64,000 nucleotides of DNA from Halorubrum trapanicum (GTDB taxonomy: Archaea; Halobacteriota; Halobacteria; Halobacteriales; Haloferacaceae). A program made the translations under genes and the position numbers. Position 1 is the stretch's first letter. Each line of letters begins with the position of its first letter. The notes below the pieces were generated by a model. It saw nothing but the letters and a program-made list of their open reading frames with translations. It ran no database searches and had not been told where the DNA came from. Shown piece by piece: positions 1 through 51,080 of the stretch. The stretch lies in assembly GCF_017873555.1 (NCBI RefSeq), contig NZ_JAGGKE010000008.1, forward strand, positions 1 through 64,000, written 5' to 3'.

Positions 1-104
1 ACCTCGCGCCTCCCCCGCCTCGTCGCTGGCGGCTATCGCCGCCAGCGACTCCCTCGCGCGTGCGACTCACGCCCTTCGGGCGTTCGTCGGCACGCGCCAC
101 CGCG
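1..104 (+). repeat. Structured dispersed repeat, copy C (3' part only)
   Basis: This is the right-hand part of a dispersed element seen again at 20503-20758 and 50275-50535; its left part lies before the window. A perfect 12-bp hairpin (22-33 with 38-49, loop TATC) is followed by the linker TCCCTCGCGCGTGC. A second hairpin follows: ACGCCC 69-74 with GGGCGT 78-83, flanked by a TC/TC internal loop and CGAC/GTCG. It is enclosed by GCGCGTGC 56-63 pairing with GCACGCGC 90-97. The element ends in CACCGC, as in the other copies. Hairpin sequences differ from the other copies, but the linkers are the same. No coding function is supported. Confidence 0.8.
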
Positions 105-19106: not shown

Positions 19107-20312
19107 TCAGTTCAGGCAGGCGGCGACGACCCGCAGCGCGGCCTCGCCCCGCACCTCGTTCGCGAGCAGGGGCACCCGCTTCACGTCGCGGGCGCGGAAC
19201 AGGTCGGTCGCTTCCCGGAGCGCGTTCTGTTGGACCTCCCAGCGGCGCGCGCAGAACTCGCAGGTGTCCGGGTTCGGCTCCACCACCCAGTCGGGATCGA
19301 TCGCGGTCCCGTTTCCGCCCGTCACGTCGCCGACGCCCTCCATCACCCGGTTGACGACGAGCGTGTTCACTGGAATCCCGAACTCGTCGAGGCGGGCGAC
19401 GAGCCGTTCGGACTCGACGACGCTCATCTCCTCTGGGATCATCACGACGCGGAAGTCGGTCTTCGCGGGGTCACGGAGGACGGCCCGCAGTCGCTCGATG
19501 CGCTCGCGCAGTTCCTCGAGGTCGGCGGAGGGGTCCGGCTCGTCGTCGCCCCCGCCGAACATCCCCTTGATCCCGTCCATCATCCCGGAGAAGCGCTGGC
19601 GGAGCTTCATCACGCGGCCGAGCATCGAGTCCATGATCTCCGGCAGCTGGAGCAGCCGGAGGGTGTGGCCGGTCGGCGCGGTGTCGACGACGACGCGGTC
19701 GAACCGCGGGTCGTCGAGGTACTCCAGCAGCTGGCGCATCGCCGCCGCCTCGTCGGCGCCGGGCATCGTGCCGCCGAGGAGGCCGCCGAGGCCGGCGTCT
19801 CCGTCCTCGTCCGCAGCTCCGGCGTCCCCGCCTGCGCCGCCCATCGGTCCCTCGCCGCCCATCCCGCCCATCGCGTCGCCCATCTCGCCCAGCCCGCCGA
19901 GGGGGTCGCCGTCGGCGCCGAACATCCCCTCGTCGACCGCGGCGTCGGGGTCGATCTCGACCGCGTACAGGGGTATGTCCTCGCGGATGCGCGCCGGCTC
20001 GGCGGGGATCTCCGTCTCGTAGGTGTCGGAAAGCGAGTGCGCGGGGTCCGTGGAGACGACGAGCGTCCGGACGCCGCCCGCGGCCGAGGCCAGCCCCGTC
20101 GCGGCCGCCATCGTCGTCTTCCCGACGCCCCCCTTCCCCCCGTACAGCACGTAGTCGGGCGCGTCGACGCCCGCCGGGAGGTCGGCGAGGTCGTCGTCGA
20201 CGGTGAGCGCCTCGTCCGTCTCCGCGGTCTCGACGGCGGTCTCGTCCCCGTCGGCGGTCCCCTCGTCGCTCTCGTCGACGCGGTCGACCGGCTCGACGTC
20301 GATGTCGTCCAT
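19107..20312 (-). CDS. ArsA/Get3 family ATPase
   Basis: 401 residues. An acidic N-terminal extension (~45) precedes the deviant Walker A GGKGGVGKTT (58-67), switch I DPAHSL and the A-loop region VVDTAPTGHTLRLLQLP. CEFCARRWEVQQ supplies the CxxC that bridges zinc in Get3 dimers. Between ~115 and ~190 there is a Gly/Met-rich insert (GGLGEMGDAMGGMGGEG) at the position of the TRC40 insert, which forms the hydrophobic groove for tail-anchored proteins. This favours membrane-protein targeting over arsenite export; no ars genes are adjacent. Single ATPase domain, so a homodimer is expected. Confidence 0.85.
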   Translation of the reverse strand: MDDIDVEPVDRVDESDEGTADGDETAVETAETDEALTVDDDLADLPAGVDAPDYVLYGGKGGVGKTTMAAATGLASAAGGVRTLVVSTDPAHSLSDTYETEIPAEPARIREDIPLYAVEIDPDAAVDEGMFGADGDPLGGLGEMGDAMGGMGGEGPMGGAGGDAGAADEDGDAGLGGLLGGTMPGADEAAAMRQLLEYLDDPRFDRVVVDTAPTGHTLRLLQLPEIMDSMLGRVMKLRQRFSGMMDGIKGMFGGGDDEPDPSADLEELRERIERLRAVLRDPAKTDFRVVMIPEEMSVVESERLVARLDEFGIPVNTLVVNRVMEGVGDVTGGNGTAIDPDWVVEPNPDTCEFCARRWEVQQNALREATDLFRARDVKRVPLLANEVRGEAALRVVAACLN

Positions 20313-20502
20313 ACTCGCGTGTCGTTCCGGCGGGCTTGTGTACCCGTCGGTCCCGAGAAGACAGATACGCAGTTCCTGCGCGCACCTGTTTCAAATCTTC
20401 AGTCGTCGGTTTGTAAATGGACTCTGACGGGTCCACAGCGACCACCTCCAAAGCCCCAGCCGCCCGGTTGGACGCAACTGACTCTCGAACAGCGGAGAAC
20501 GC
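20313..20502. other. Intergenic: arsA upstream region and outer repeat module
   Basis: Holds the arsA promoter region and, on the plus strand, a TATA-like TTTGTAAAT (20410-20418). A first AAGCCCCAGCC module (~20448-20465) resembles the start of the structured repeat that begins near 20503. No coding sequence is supported. Confidence 0.5.
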
Positions 20503-20758
20503 CTCCGAAGCCCCAACTGCGAGGACGCCGGACGCTCGTTGCGCTCCTCACTCGGTCGCTTCGCTCCCTCGTTTCGGTGCTTACGTCGCCTCCGGCGTCC
20601 TCGCAGTTGCCCCTTTGAGTCCCACCCCGACCGGAACCGCACCGCGGCCTCACACCTCCCCAGCCTCGCCGCTCACGCCCTGCGGGCGTTCGCGGCGTCC
20701 CTCGCGCGTGCGACTCGCGGCCGCCGGTGGCGGCCGCTCGCAGGCACGCGCCACCGCA
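20503..20758 (+). repeat. Structured dispersed repeat, copy A
   Basis: Complete copy. It opens with CTCCGAAGCCCCAACTG. A 19-bp perfect stem pairs 20514-20532 with 20591-20609 around a 58-nt pyrimidine-rich loop. Then come CCCCTTTGAGTCCCACCCCG and CCTCACACCTCCCC, followed by hairpin 2 (20667-20672/20692-20697 and 20675-20680/20684-20689 with a TC/TC internal loop). After the linker GTCCCTCGCGCGTGC, hairpin 3 has inner stem 20717-20725/20729-20737 and outer stem 20704-20711/20744-20751. It ends in GGCACGCGCCACCGCA. It lies between the 3' end of aroA and the start of arsA. Stem sequences differ from copy B but pairing is retained. Confidence 0.85.
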
Positions 20759-20780
20759 CGCAGTTCCGTCACTGTGAGTC

Positions 20781-22163
20781 CTATGCTTCTGTGTCGTCGC
20801 GTTCGACGGCCATCCCGAGGTCGGCCATCGCCTCGAAGAAATCGGGGAACGAGACGTCGACGTGTTCGGCGCCGCGGACCGTCGTCGTCCCCTCGGCGGC
20901 GAGCGCGGCGACCGCGAGGGCCATCACGATCCGGTGGTCGTGACGGCCGTCGACGGTCGCGCCGCGCAGGTCGCTCTCCTCGCCGTGGATCGTGAGGACA
21001 TCCGGCTCCTCGGTCGCCTCGGCGCCGAGTTTTTCGAGTTCCTCGGCCATCGCGGAGACGCGGTCAGTCTCCTTGTAGCGGACGTGCTCGCAGTTCTCGA
21101 TCCGCGTCTCCCCGTCCGCGACCGCGCCGAGCGCGGCGATCGTCGGGAGGAGGTCCGGGGTGTCGCCCACGTCGACGGTGACGCCGGAGAGGTCGGCGCG
21201 CTCGACCGCGATCTCGCCGGCCTCGCGGTCCCAGTCGACGGGCGCGCCCATGCGCTCGACGACCCCGACGATCGCGGCGTCGCCCTGTGCGCTGGGGCGC
21301 GCGCCCTCGATTCGCAGCGGCTCTCCCGGCGCGGCCGCGACCGCGCCCGCGCCGAGCAGGTAGGAGATGGAGGAGAAGTCGCCGGGGACCGCGTACGTCC
21401 CCTCGCTCGGCGCGTAGGTTTGTCCGCCCGGGACCGAGAAGCCCGCGGCGCCCGCGGCGCCGTCGAGGGGGTCACCGGACTCGTCGACCGGGGTCGCCTC
21501 GACGCCGAAGTCGGCGAGCAGTTCGAGCGTGATGTCGACGTACGGCGCCGACTTGAGATCGGTCGTGAGGTCGACTTCGACCCCCTCGTCGGTGACCGCG
21601 CCGGCCATCAGCAGCGCCGTGACGTACTGCGAGGAGACGTCGCCCGGGATCGCCACCTCGCCGCCCGCGAGCGGGCCGGCGACCACGAGCGGGGCCTGCC
21701 CGTTCGCCCGCGTCGACTCCGCACGGACGCCGAGGTCGGCGAGCGCGTCGAGGAGCGGTCCCTGCGGGCGCGAGCGCAGCGAGTCGTCGCCGGTGAGGAC
21801 GGTCGTGCCGTCCGCGAGCGCGGCCGCGGCGGTGACCAGTCGCATCGTCGTCCCCGAGTTCGCGCAGTCGATCACGTCGTCGGGGACCCCGGGACGGCCG
21901 TCGAACCCCTCGACGGCGAGGGCGTCGGCGCCGGCGAACTCCGACTCGGCCGCTGTCTCACCGTCGGCTCCCGCCGGGGCGACCGACCCGCCGAACGCGG
22001 TGACGGCGCGGGCGGTCGCCCGCGTGTCGGCGGAGATCAGGGGCGACTCGACGGTCGCGCCGTCGCTGTACCCGGCGGCGAGCAGCGCGCGGTGGGTGTA
22101 GCTCTTCGACGGCGGCGCGCGCGCGGTCCCGCGAAGGTCTGAGCGCGTGACGTGGGCGTCCAT
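20781..22163 (-). CDS. aroA: 3-phosphoshikimate 1-carboxyvinyltransferase (EPSP synthase)
   Basis: 460 residues, slightly longer than the ~430 norm through Ala/Gly insertions. It transfers the enolpyruvyl group of phosphoenolpyruvate to shikimate-3-phosphate in the aromatic amino acid pathway. Visible are the S3P-binding Lys/Ser ([12 protein letters not shown]), the first signature [11 protein letters not shown], the [11 protein letters not shown] loop, [11 protein letters not shown], and the second signature [19 protein letters not shown], then [16 protein letters not shown] 22163 ([12 protein letters not shown]) is the family-like start. It is monocistronic; the structured repeat lies 22 bp after its stop codon. 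Confidence 0.93.
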
Positions 22164-22269
22164 ACCCACTCCTGCCGGCCGCGGCGACAAGTCGGTACCG
22201 ACCGCGGCACGATTGCGATCGGTGCGCGTCGAGACGCAGCTGCGCTCGGCGCGCCGCCGCGGCACACCC

Positions 22270-22275
22270 TTTATA
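22270..22275 (+). promoter_or_regulatory. TATA box (TTTATA) for the MBF1 gene
   Basis: TTTATA centred 27 bp before ATG 22300; one of the best matches to the archaeal consensus in the window. Confidence 0.7.
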
Positions 22276-22299
22276 CCATCGGGAGCGTTAGCGTCGCGT

Positions 22300-22842
22300 A
22301 TGCCCCAGTGTGAGATGTGCGGCGCCGAGGAGGCCTCGCTGACGACGACGAAGGTCGAAGGCGCCGAGCTGGAGCTTTGTAGCTCGTGTACGGACTTCGG
22401 CACCGAAGTCCGCGACGAGTCGACCGGCTCCGGCGGCGGCAAGTACTCCACCAGCTCCAGCACCGGGAAGTCGTCCTCGTCTTCGTCGTCCGGCTCGTCC
22501 GGCTCGTCGAGCGGTTCCGGGAGCTCAGGCGGCTCGACCCGCCCCCGCGACATGTTCGACGACATGGACGAGATCGCCACCGACTACGACGAGCGGATCC
22601 GCGACGCGCGGGAGTCGCGCGGGCTGAGCCAGGAGGAGCTGGCCGACCAGCTCAACGAGAAGGCGAGCCTCATCCGCAAGCTCGAACGCAGCGACACGCT
22701 CCCGACCGACGAGGTCCAGCGCAAGCTCGAACGCGCGCTCGACATCTCGCTGGTCGAGGGCCAGTCGGCCGACGACGCCGACTGGGAGACCAACGACGCG
22801 GGCACGATGACCCTCGGCGACGTCGTCAAGCGGAAGGACTGA
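22300..22842 (+). CDS. Multiprotein bridging factor 1-like HTH protein
   Basis: 180 residues. The zinc ribbon (CEMCGAEEA...LCSSC, residues 4-31) is typical of archaeal MBF1. A Ser/Gly-rich linker (~40-80) follows, then a Cro/C1-type HTH ([36 protein letters not shown], ~105-145) and an acidic tail. In eukaryotes MBF1 bridges activators and TBP; archaeal MBF1 has been linked to ribosomes and is thought to act in translation. The leaderless start is supported by the TATA box at 22270-22275. Confidence 0.88.
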
Positions 22843-46718: not shown

Positions 46719-46946
46719 ATGAGCGAGTACACCGAGGAGGAACAGCGGATCCTCGCGTACCTCACGGACAGCGTCACCCGTGGCGAGCGGTACGTTCGCT
46801 CGAAGACGATCGCCGACGCGATCGGTCTCACCGCCAAACAGGTGGGGTCGCGGCTCCCCCGCCTCGCCGAGAAGTCGGACGACGTCGACATCGAGAAGTG
46901 GGGCCGAGCCAAGTCGACGACCTGGCGCGTGACGCCGGAAGGGTGA
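46719..46946 (+). CDS. Small winged-helix DNA-binding protein (75 aa)
   Basis: Helices EEEQRILAYLTDSV, SKTIADAIG and TAKQVGSRLPRLAEKS followed by a wing (VDIEKWGRAKSTTWRVT) fit a minimal winged helix. The Lys/Arg-rich recognition helix suggests DNA binding. CGTTAAGA about 30 bp upstream supports ATG 46719. The last codons and TGA stop form the first unit of a nine-unit 19-bp tandem array. Confidence 0.7.
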   Translation: MSEYTEEEQRILAYLTDSVTRGERYVRSKTIADAIGLTAKQVGSRLPRLAEKSDDVDIEKWGRAKSTTWRVTPEG

Positions 46947-47105
46947 CGGCCCACCGGAAGGGTGACGCCCTGCCGGAAGGGTGACGGCCCACCGGAAGGG
47001 TGGCGCCTCGCCGGAAGGGTGGCGCCTCGCCGGAAGGGTGGCGCCTCGCCGGAAGGGTGGCGCCTCGCCGGAAGGGTGGCGCCTCGCCGGAAGGGTGGTG
47101 CGGTC
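46935..47105. repeat. Nine 19-bp tandem repeats starting in a stop codon
   Basis: Units begin CCGGAAGGGTG at 46935, 46954, 46973, 46992, 47011, 47030, 47049, 47068 and 47087. The first three continue ACGGCCCA or ACGCCCTG; the next five are identical (GCGCCTCG). The first carries the TGA of the winged-helix gene. There are no spacers, so it is not a CRISPR. Confidence 0.95.
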
Positions 47106-47175
47106 CCCCCCCGTCCGCGCGCTGTCGCGTCCCCCACTGCCGTCACGTTCTCCGCATCCGACTCCGCCGACGCGC

Positions 47176-48443: not shown

Positions 48444-49185
48444 GTCGGTCCGCGACGGTCGATGAACCCCTCCGTGACCGCCCGCTGACGCCTGCGACGC
48501 GGCGCCGATCCTGACGTCCGGGGTCGGGGAAATCCCGAGCGACGGATCCGGATCTCACATATTTATACCCGTGAGGCACGTACCGGTAAATGCCGAAGTC
48601 CGACGCTTTTCTCGTTGGAGTTCGGCGCTAACGATCCGCGCGCCCGTCCCGACCACCCGGGCGGCGCCGCCGCCGACAGCCTGGGGGTCCGCTGTCCGGC
48701 CGCCGCCCGTCCGCCTCCCACTCGCCTTTCGCCCACCGCTCCTCGTCTTCCACCCCTTTCCGCTTCCGACTCCTCTCCGCTTCCGACTCCTCTCCGCTTC
48801 CCACCGTTTCCACCTCTTCGGCTGTTCTCGCCTCGTCTTCCATCGTCAGCTCGAATCCGATTCGGTGACGACGCGGTGAAACCCGCCCCGCTGCGACCTG
48901 AGTATCCGTATTGATAACTCGGCCGGTACGTTCTTACGTCGGTCGGCGGAGAACGTAAACGCCGCGGACGAATCCGAGCGGCCCCATCCCGTTTCGGGCG
49001 GGCCGGTCGGCCACTCGCTTCCACCGTCCGTCGTCCGTCGGCTTGGGTTCGGGTCCACCCGCTCCCACACCGAGCCCGAACCCGTTTCTGTACGTACTTC
49101 CCGTTCCGGACAGCGACCGACAGCGTTGGCGCGTCCGGGCCGGAAGCGCAAGGACGAAACCCTCGGCCGACGAACCGGCGGTCGA
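48444..49185. other. 742-bp intergenic region with possible leaderless micro-ORF and RNA hairpin
   Basis: No conventional gene is supported. On the plus strand an ATTTATA box (48561-48567) lies 26 bp before ATG 48590, which opens a 13-codon frame (MPKSDAFLVGVRR, stop 48629-48631). About 28 nt further on is a strong nested hairpin: GGGCGGCG 48659-48666 with CGCCGCCC 48701-48708, enclosing GACAGC 48675-48680 with GCTGTC 48691-48696. A pyrimidine-rich tract (~48709-48840) follows. A non-coding or leader RNA is possible. The remainder to 49185 shows nothing identifiable. Confidence 0.4.
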
Positions 49186-50220
49186 ATGTTCCCCCGCGAG
49201 TACCGCGGCGTCGCCTTCGTCGTCGGGCTGTTCGTGATCGTCCAGGTGGGCGCGCTGGCGCTGGTCCCGGAGTTCGTCGCGAGCGACTACCAGGCGGTCG
49301 AGAACCCCGATAACCCCGCCAACAGCGTGTTGTACGTCGTCGCCATCGTCGCGATGACCGGGCTGATGCTGGCGGCGTTCCGATACGACCTCGACGGGGC
49401 GATCCGACTCCTGATCGTCGGCGTCTCCGCGTGGCTCTCGTGGTACGTCTTCTCCGCGCTCGTCTCGCCGCTCGCGGCCGCCGTCCCCGCGGTCGCGGTC
49501 GCGGTCGGTCTCCTCCTCTACCCCGAGTGGTACGTGATCGACACCGCCGGGGTGTTGATGGGCGCTGGCGCGGCGGGGCTGTTCGGCATCTCCTTCGGCC
49601 TGCTGCCGGCGCTCGTCCTGCTCGCCGTCCTCGCCGTCTACGACGCGATCTCCGTGTACGGCACCGAGCACATGCTGTCGCTCGCGGAGGGAATTATGGA
49701 CCTCAACATCCCGGTCGTGCTGGTGATCCCGCTGTCGCTGTCGTACTCGCTGCTCGACGGCGGCGCGGCCAGCGAGGAAGCCGCGGGGGTCGGCGAGGAC
49801 GTGGAGACCGAGTCGGACGTGAAGGCCGACTCCGCCGACGAGAACGAGGCCGCTGGCGATGACGGGGGAGAACCTGGCTCGGAGGTCGACGCCGCCGAAC
49901 CCGCGGAGGCCGGCGACCGCGACGCCTTCTTCATCGGTCTCGGGGACGCCGTGATCCCGACGGTGTTGATCGCGAGCGCGGCGACGTTCTCGCCGGCGGC
50001 GGACCTCGCGGTCCCCTTCCTCGGCGTCAACCTCCCCGCGCTGCTGGCGATGGTCGGGACCCTCGCGGGGCTGCTCGTCCTCATGCGCTGGGTGATACGG
50101 GGGCGGCCGCACGCGGCGCTTCCGCTGTTGAACGGCGGGGCTATCGGCGGGTACCTGGTCGGGTCGGTGGTTGCCGGCGTGCCGCTGATCGAGGCACTGG
50201 GACTCGCGGGGATCCTGTAG
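49186..50220 (+). CDS. Presenilin-family intramembrane aspartyl protease
   Basis: 344 residues with about eight to nine helices. The two catalytic aspartates are in YDAISVYGTEH (Asp153, helix 6 YD motif) and GLGDAVIP (Asp254, helix 7 GxGD motif). ALPLLNGG near the C-terminus stands for the PAL motif. Between the catalytic helices lies a long acidic loop (~192-246). Archaeal presenilin homologues cut membrane-spanning peptides. ATG 49186 is taken over an in-frame TTG 60 bp upstream. It converges on the PUA gene with the structured repeat between. Confidence 0.85.
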   Translation: MFPREYRGVAFVVGLFVIVQVGALALVPEFVASDYQAVENPDNPANSVLYVVAIVAMTGLMLAAFRYDLDGAIRLLIVGVSAWLSWYVFSALVSPLAAAVPAVAVAVGLLLYPEWYVIDTAGVLMGAGAAGLFGISFGLLPALVLLAVLAVYDAISVYGTEHMLSLAEGIMDLNIPVVLVIPLSLSYSLLDGGAASEEAAGVGEDVETESDVKADSADENEAAGDDGGEPGSEVDAAEPAEAGDRDAFFIGLGDAVIPTVLIASAATFSPAADLAVPFLGVNLPALLAMVGTLAGLLVLMRWVIRGRPHAALPLLNGGAIGGYLVGSVVAGVPLIEALGLAGIL

Positions 50221-50274: not shown

Positions 50275-50535
50275 CCGAAGCCCCAGCCGCGAGGCGGACA
50301 GACGCTCGCTGCGCTCCTCACTCGATCGCTCACTTCGTTCGCTCTCCCGTTCGGTGCTGGCGTCGCCTCTGTCCGCCTCGCGGCTGCCCCTTCGAGTCCC
50401 GCCCCGGCCGCACAGCGACCGCACCTCACGCCTCCCCAACCTCGCGGTTCGCGCTCTCCGAGCGCTCACCGCGTCCCTCGCGCGTGCTGTCTCGCGGCCG
50501 CCGATGGCGGCCGCTCGCAGGCACGCGCCACCGCA
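50275..50535 (+). repeat. Structured dispersed repeat, copy B (possible ncRNA)
   Basis: Complete copy. A 19-bp perfect stem pairs 50284-50302 with 50368-50386 around a 65-nt loop. Then come CCCCTTCGAGTCCCGCCCCG and CCTCACGCCTCCCCAACCTCG. Hairpin 2 pairs 50443-50448/50468-50473 and 50451-50456/50460-50465 with a TC/TC internal loop and 3-nt loop. After the linker GTCCCTCGCGCGTGC, hairpin 3 has inner stem 50494-50502/50506-50514 and outer stem 50480-50487/50521-50528, ending CACCGCA. It sits between the convergent 3' ends of the presenilin and PUA genes. Confidence 0.88.
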
Positions 50536-50570
50536 GTCCGTTCTTCAGTAATAGTCGCGGTTTCGGTCTC

Positions 50571-51080
50571 TTAGTCGTCGTCAGCGGGGTTCCCGTCGCG
50601 CGTCTTCACGGCGACGCCGGAGCCGAGCTGCTCGGCCTCCGCGCCCGAGAGTTCGGCGCGGCCGACGCCGAAGATGGCGCCGCTCTCGTCGACGACGAGC
50701 ACCTCGTCGCCGGGGCGGATCCCGTCGTCCGCGGCGGTGACGAACTTCGCGAACGCGTCGCGCCCCTCGCGCACGAACGGCTCGCTCTCCCCGCCGACGA
50801 CCATCCGGTGTCGCGGGGCGGCGAACGCGTCGGCGATCCGCTTCCCGCCCGCCAGACCGAGCGTGAACCGGCCGTCGGTGCCGTACGAGACGAGGCGGTC
50901 GCCCTCGCTGCTGCCGGGGGTGTCGTCGACGTCGCCGTCGATCACCTGTCGCGGGCGGCCGCCGCTCGACCGGCGCACGGTGAGCGGGTCGTCCGGCGGG
51001 AACAGGGCCTCGCCCGCGCCGCTCCCGAACTGGTAGTCGGCGGCGGTCCGCAGGTCCGCGAGCGTCTCGGCGTCGGTCAT
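50571..51080 (-). CDS. PUA domain protein
   Basis: 169 residues. The N-terminal ~75 residues (LRTAADYQFGSGAGEALFPPDD...GRPRQVIDGD) have the form of the domain preceding PUA in RNA-modification proteins. Residues ~85-165 are a PUA fold (GIRPGDEVLVVDESGAIFGVGRAELSGAEAEQL with a beta-barrel pattern). PUA domains bind tRNA or rRNA. No catalytic domain is attached, so it may be an RNA-binding accessory factor. Confidence 0.8.
   Translation of the reverse strand: MTDAETLADLRTAADYQFGSGAGEALFPPDDPLTVRRSSGGRPRQVIDGDVDDTPGSSEGDRLVSYGTDGRFTLGLAGGKRIADAFAAPRHRMVVGGESEPFVREGRDAFAKFVTAADDGIRPGDEVLVVDESGAIFGVGRAELSGAEAEQLGSGVAVKTRDGNPADDD

Follow-up and report, generated by a model that had tools for sequence, protein, structure and literature searches.

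The window analyzed here, a 64,000-nt stretch of the Halorubrum trapanicum genome, holds two copies of a dispersed repeat (A and B) whose first stem is perfectly paired in each copy and differently spelled in the two. The question raised by this locus is which process has kept the arms matched and what kind of element carries them. By reading the arms directly we recovered the perfect 19-bp stem 1 in both copies at the exact positions given in an earlier note on this DNA; the left arms of A and B differ at 6 of 19 positions and the right arm matches every difference. The elements and their neighbours are the following:

20503..20766, minus strand: copy A, whole element (profile HMM match 20508-20757, 202 bits)
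20506..20627, minus strand: core of copy A (G-tracts, stem 1, head) in RNA sense (covariance model R1, 87.7 bits, E 1.3e-15)
20514..20532, plus strand: copy A, left arm of stem 1, CAACTGCGAGGACGCCGGA, exact reverse complement of 20591-20609
20591..20609, plus strand: copy A, right arm of stem 1, TCCGGCGTCCTCGCAGTTG, exact reverse complement of 20514-20532
20667..20697, minus strand: copy A, hairpin 2, CGCCGC/GCGGCG and ACGCCC/GGGCGT (from the sequence)
20704..20751, minus strand: copy A, hairpin 3, outer GCGCGTGC/GCACGCGC, inner GCGGCCGCC/GGCGGCCGC (from the sequence)
about 20446/20450..20506, no strand assigned: flank unit of copy A, 57 nt, AAAGCCCCAGCCG... then GAAGCCCC, repeating the edge of the element
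20781-22580 and 19107-20312, both minus strand: aroA-like ORF (its 3' end) and ArsA-like ORF (its start), with copy A intergenic between them (names read from translations)
50275..50543, minus strand: copy B, whole element (profile HMM match 50278-50534, 193 bits)
50276..50404, minus strand: core of copy B in RNA sense (covariance model R1, 74.1 bits, E 6.5e-13)
50284..50302, plus strand: copy B, left arm of stem 1, CAGCCGCGAGGCGGACAGA, exact reverse complement of 50368-50386
50368..50386, plus strand: copy B, right arm of stem 1, TCTGTCCGCCTCGCGGCTG, exact reverse complement of 50284-50302
50443..50473, minus strand: copy B, hairpin 2, CGCGGT/ACCGCG and GCGCTC/GAGCGC (from the sequence)
50480..50528, minus strand: copy B, hairpin 3 (from the sequence)
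49126-50220, plus strand, and 50571-51080, minus strand: convergent presenilin-like and PUA-like ORFs beside copy B (names read from translations)
1..102, minus strand: copy C, truncated at the window start and covering only model positions 139-253 (profile HMM, 41 bits)

The window also contains, at 46914-47122, a 19-nt tandem repeat array of about 10 units (CCGGAAGGGTGGCGCCTCG and variants).

The element is about 255 nt long, intergenic and non-coding. Stem 1, hairpin 2 and hairpin 3 are highly divergent in sequence among the copies, each being self-complementary, and constant single-stranded blocks lie between them; hairpin 2, for example, has another sequence in copy B and in other copies yet keeps its pairing. 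On the minus strand the core reads, in order, GGGNGGGACU(G/C)AAAGGGGC, arm 1, CGACGCAAGCACCGCA, a small hairpin, GAGGAGCGCAGCGAG, arm 2 and GGGGCUUU, or in RNA letters GGG-N-GGG-ACU(G/C)AAA-GGGG-C, arm 1, internal loop, arm 2 and GGGG-CUUU. Between the arms we observed a conserved purine-rich internal loop and the small hairpin, which has GA on each side (tandem G.A pairs as a cap). On the minus strand the core is preceded in this genus, on its 5' side, by GGGGAGGCGUGAGG, a conserved block, together with hairpins 3 and 2. Four GGG runs are present, at model positions 1-3, 5-7 and 16-18 and directly ahead of the final CUUU. The GGGNGGG motif is intact in 35 of 39 congeneric copies (N is free, with C or T about equally frequent) and the last G-tract in 40 of 40. 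We conjecture from the sequence that these four tracts may assemble into a quadruplex in which the head hairpin would be one of the loops; the haloarchaeal cytoplasm is rich in KCl. The stem-1 flank of most copies consists of units of 57-66 nt that repeat the stem-1 edge of the element, one to three in tandem, and in many copies these units carry a TTATAA box. Small inserts of two short hairpins (e.g. GAGAGAGCTTCGCTCTCTC beside CGAAAGGCGCGAAGCGCCTTTCG) were also seen within heads or hairpins (L107, L109, L111, L233, L247, L268 and L275) and are possibly a second, nested palindromic element.

Using BLAST with copy B as query we obtained 227 candidates in the own genome, 40 of which were scored as copies, with an identity to copy B of about 75-88%. 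A profile HMM built from 37 own-genome copies gave a density of 31-50 copies per Mb in unbiased 20-kb stretches of five congeneric genomes, which extrapolates to roughly 120-150 copies per 3-Mb genome, and copies were present in all 35 congeneric genomes searched. We then turned to the rest of the archaea with the covariance model R1, composed of 16 sequences from other genera only and none from this genus. R1 recovers both A and B on the minus strand (E values listed above) and matches 94 of 116 genomes of the class; at the level of the phylum 19 of 148 genomes match, all 19 inside the order, and the 124 archaeal genomes searched beyond the order gave no match. In a pattern scan of named genomes the base GCCCCTTTC(A/G)GTCCCACCC, with differing arms, was found in at least 18 named haloarchaeal genera (including Haloarcula, Natrinema, Haladaptatus, Halorussus, Halobaculum and Natronococcus), and part of the conservation in this pan-class sample is there by construction as the sample was collected with the motif. 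The same constant base carries a second class of heads, GGTCGCTC...GATATTCGC...GCGAATAGT...GAGACGAC, in L231, L269, L283 and L304, and heads are precisely missing in L224, L240, L302, L318 and L324. Furthermore, of 138 oriented matches 35 stand head to head with a second copy, separated by about 15-27 nt (examples with a gap of about 25 nt are L247 5175-5236, L229 3225-3288, L234 7052-7116 and L245 3883-3945), and in other genera such a dimer forms as a whole a larger palindrome with GAAAGCCCC/GGGGCTTTC ends. The family and the fold described in the earlier note are thus real, but its extent had been drawn too narrowly: the element is class-wide, has modular heads and occurs in head-to-head dimers.

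The fold proved to be conserved and covarying over many copies and genera. The pairing of the stem-1 arms lies well above what chance would give. Among 74 distinct stem-1 arm pairs of the same genus 96% of the positions are Watson–Crick, compared to 73% with partners shuffled, and among 100 distinct arm pairs from other haloarchaea the values are 93% and 44%; as pairing at 8 or more of 11 positions was required for a copy to enter the test, the observed percentages are biased upwards. Applying RNAalifold to a cross-genus alignment of 24 sequences we obtained 30 pairs, and in 20 of these 30 both sides have changed. In this alignment 94.1% of the cells are paired (74.7% after shuffling) and the covariation score is 0.506, compared to 0.166 with shuffled and at most 0.093 with slid partners; these controls are shuffles and slid partners among related copies, and the comparisons are hence not tree-aware probabilities. 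Two pairs deserve attention, 52-95 (CG in 18 sequences, GC in 6) and 55-92 (CG in 16, UA in 8), as they covary within the asymmetric internal loop while their neighbours remain unpaired. Palindrome correction would not produce such a loop.

Such correction does take place. Between intact arms, 5 of 47 unbiased copies (11%) and additionally L098 carry the inner part of stem 1 in inverted orientation; the inverted inner loops were located at L154 9929-10170, L156 6524-6757, L164 2317-2527, L165 14042-14282, L196 993-1231 and L098 2860-3155. L165 also has a perfect AAAGCCCC/GGGGCTTT in place of the conserved mismatch AAAGCCCC/GCCCCTTT, and in L097 hairpin 3 is now a perfect palindrome, while the close relative L094 retains the imperfection of the family. 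These inverted loops and perfected mismatches are footprints of replication template switching, which is known to homogenise the arms of hairpins and to invert their loops without selection, and which has been documented to create compensatory changes of several bases (PMC8794818, PMC8604942). As template switching is a mutational route to matched arms, matched arms alone do not prove selection, and the reasoning of the earlier note, that drift could not have kept the arms matched and that selection must have done so, is incomplete at this step. The selection that it proposed nevertheless finds support in the covariation of the internal loop and in a strand-specific tolerance of wobble pairs. 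A purely mutational explanation would go further and regard the copies as neutral DNA palindromes, in which template switching and gene conversion keep the arms matched and the fold is not under selection. The seven copies named above, in which the loop is inverted or a stem has become perfect, and the published behaviour of template switching speak for it; however, the unpaired segments are conserved class-wide, the conserved mismatches persist in most copies though correction can erase them, and the internal-loop pairs covary without turning into perfect palindromes. It also predicts equal numbers of A.C and G.T mismatches, and the observed numbers are unequal. We therefore disfavour this explanation and consider it quite unlikely.

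The mismatch counts further indicate which strand folds. Isolated stem-1 mismatches, read on the plus strand, are A.C in 25 and G.T in 7 cases across genera (p 0.002) and A.C in 18 and G.T in 2 cases in the own genus (p 0.0004); when only distinct contexts are counted, the numbers are 6 versus 2 in the own genus and 24 versus 7 in the class-wide set. A strand-blind process predicts equal A.C and G.T, and the excess of A.C argues against it. Since an A.C on the plus strand is a G.U wobble on the minus strand, the minus strand is the folded one, and not the plus strand as had been written before. U.G pairs are found at 48-100 and 46-102 of the cross-genus alignment. The minus-strand fold was also calculated to be more stable in 79 of 79 copies, which lends weak support only because the G-rich strand scores better by composition. 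The asymmetry could also stem from a strand-biased C-to-T mutation or from a DNA hairpin on that strand. From the sequence, the folded minus strand is probably RNA (putative). The inverted head in 11% of the sampled copies is a point against a strict RNA motif, as it would spoil such a motif.

Regarding transcription signals, of 37 own-genome copies 20 have TTATAA or TTTAAA at a distance of 31-43 nt beyond the stem-1 edge, and 15 have it 9-20 nt beyond the opposite edge. Being palindromic, these TATA-like boxes near either end do not indicate a direction, and for the minus strand no convincing promoter was found among those examined in the 37 copies. A plus-strand RNA with a TATA box upstream at about -26 was considered as well; the spacing fits many copies, and the candidate was dropped as the mismatch asymmetry favours the minus strand.

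For the position relative to genes, A and B each begin 20-40 nt past a stop codon in the same sense, and this arrangement as well as the strong hairpins would suit a cis-acting regulatory or terminator element at gene ends. However, among 38 own-genome copies the flanking genes (simple gene caller) are tandem in 20, convergent in 10 and divergent in 8 cases, as in random placement. In other genera 64 tandem, 31 divergent and 18 convergent settings follow the background (158, 94 and 67, respectively), and no head-to-head dimer was found in a convergent setting. These two sets rule out the association with gene 3' ends that A and B had suggested, and a cis-acting role of this kind is not supported and appears very improbable. 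Comparing relatives, we observed an element at the A site in 3 of 4 comparable genomes and at the B site in 3 of 3, with arms that are not always the same, and found other element sites empty in relatives. This occupancy indicates that most copies are passed on in place and that copies have been both gained and lost. In the genomes G015 and G005 a single element (L109 and L112) is flanked by a presenilin-like gene, the neighbour of B, and an aroA-like gene, the neighbour of A; this is the arrangement that recombination between copies would give. As a separate observation, around 770-1500 of L094 and L097 a duplicated fragment of the aroA-like 3' end adjoins the element, with further sequence between the two fragments.

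The dispersed, intergenic and non-coding copies and the orthologous sites that are both occupied and empty would also be expected of a classical MITE, in which the stem-1 arms are the terminal inverted repeats of a DNA transposon. In this genus, however, only one end of the element carries stem 1, which is followed by two further hairpins; in other genera the dimers end in GAAAGCCCC/GGGGCTTTC. The arms differ in almost every copy and the loops are constant, opposite to what a transposon end would show. At clean pairs of occupied and empty sites, where the neutral flanks are too diverged, we saw no target-site duplication, and neither a transposase inside a copy nor an autonomous partner gene was found. 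We regard a MITE as the least probable of the explanations considered.

The main rival to the RNA reading is a single-stranded DNA version. Here the minus strand would fold as DNA during replication, with the hairpin and the G-tracts, and be recognised by a trans-acting HUH/Y1 single-strand transposase, as in IS200/IS605-derived elements and REPs, and RNA would not be needed. G.T is the best-tolerated mismatch in DNA, so that the strand asymmetry fits this version too, and the inverted loops and the corrections templated by the hairpin demonstrate folding of the DNA. The high copy number, the random orientation between genes and the precise head losses listed above agree with it, and the own genome has four Y1_Tnp genes as candidates for the enzyme. 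On the other hand, none of the phage records contains a match to the element and only 4 plasmid records contain partial matches (the best in Halorubrum salinarum, 82%), most sites are conserved between species, which means slow movement, and the covariation in the purine-rich asymmetric loop resembles an RNA motif. On balance we judge the DNA version to be rather unlikely.

Our preferred explanation, towards which we lean slightly, is a non-autonomous dispersed element acting through its folded minus strand, putatively as RNA more likely than as DNA, with arms that are matched by selection together with template switching. A and B would be two of the roughly 120-150 copies in this genome, and the working form would be the folded minus strand, the fold being required in a single-stranded nucleic acid of that strand (probably RNA, less likely DNA). 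The element would have spread as a non-autonomous repeat by means of an enzyme acting in trans and would then have been inherited mostly in place. Two causes would contribute to the matching of the arms: selection would remove unpaired changes and tolerate G.U, and template switching during replication would occasionally copy one arm into the other and also flip the loop. More tentatively, and with considerable doubt, we propose a new class of archaeal RNA, a quadruplex-capable hairpin RNA in about 80% of the sampled genomes of the class and with more than 100 copies in some, which would spread non-autonomously via its folded strand, its head being flipped or swapped and its base constant. If transcribed, the element would rank with the most abundant structured RNA genes of the class (about 80% of the sampled haloarchaeal genomes, up to about 150 copies each). 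The family further offers many replicates for asking which shares selection and DNA template switching have in the 'compensatory covariation' that is used to call RNA structures, and the two signals are separable here via the wobble asymmetry and the internal-loop pairs.

A structure-defined element of this kind invites comparison with Rfam. In the window all of the 4227 families stay below their gathering scores, and at a relaxed threshold only chance-level scores were obtained over copy A. In open papers on haloarchaeal repeats, the core sequence, structured RNAs and quadruplexes we found no description (subscription papers and preprints were outside this scope); conserved but unassigned haloarchaeal RNAs have been reported in one study among the sRNAs of a halite community (PMC7002113). 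The remark in the earlier note that no named family was known thus agrees with Rfam and with the open literature searched, and a description elsewhere is possible.

Among known systems, the bacterial intergenic palindromic repeats that fold as RNA (ERIC/IRU, BIME/REP and Correia-type) are dispersed and intergenic, about 100-250 nt long, present in tens to hundreds of copies and rich in strong compensated hairpins. By description our element is like them in dispersal, size, copy number and hairpins, but here the fold is conserved class-wide in archaea, the arms are randomised, heads are inverted or exchanged, and head-to-head dimers and four conserved G-tracts occur. With the IS200/IS605-derived palindromic elements and REP/RAYT it shares strand-specific hairpins, non-coding copies and a possible Y1 transposase in trans; the strand specificity, seen here as the mismatch asymmetry, is expected of an RNA too, and in contrast to those elements no conserved insertion tetranucleotide was identified. 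Finally, homogenised arms and inverted loops are common to our element and to the hotspots of template switching at quasipalindromes (PMC8794818, PMC8604942), whereas here the events span the copies of one dispersed family and so provide many replicates.
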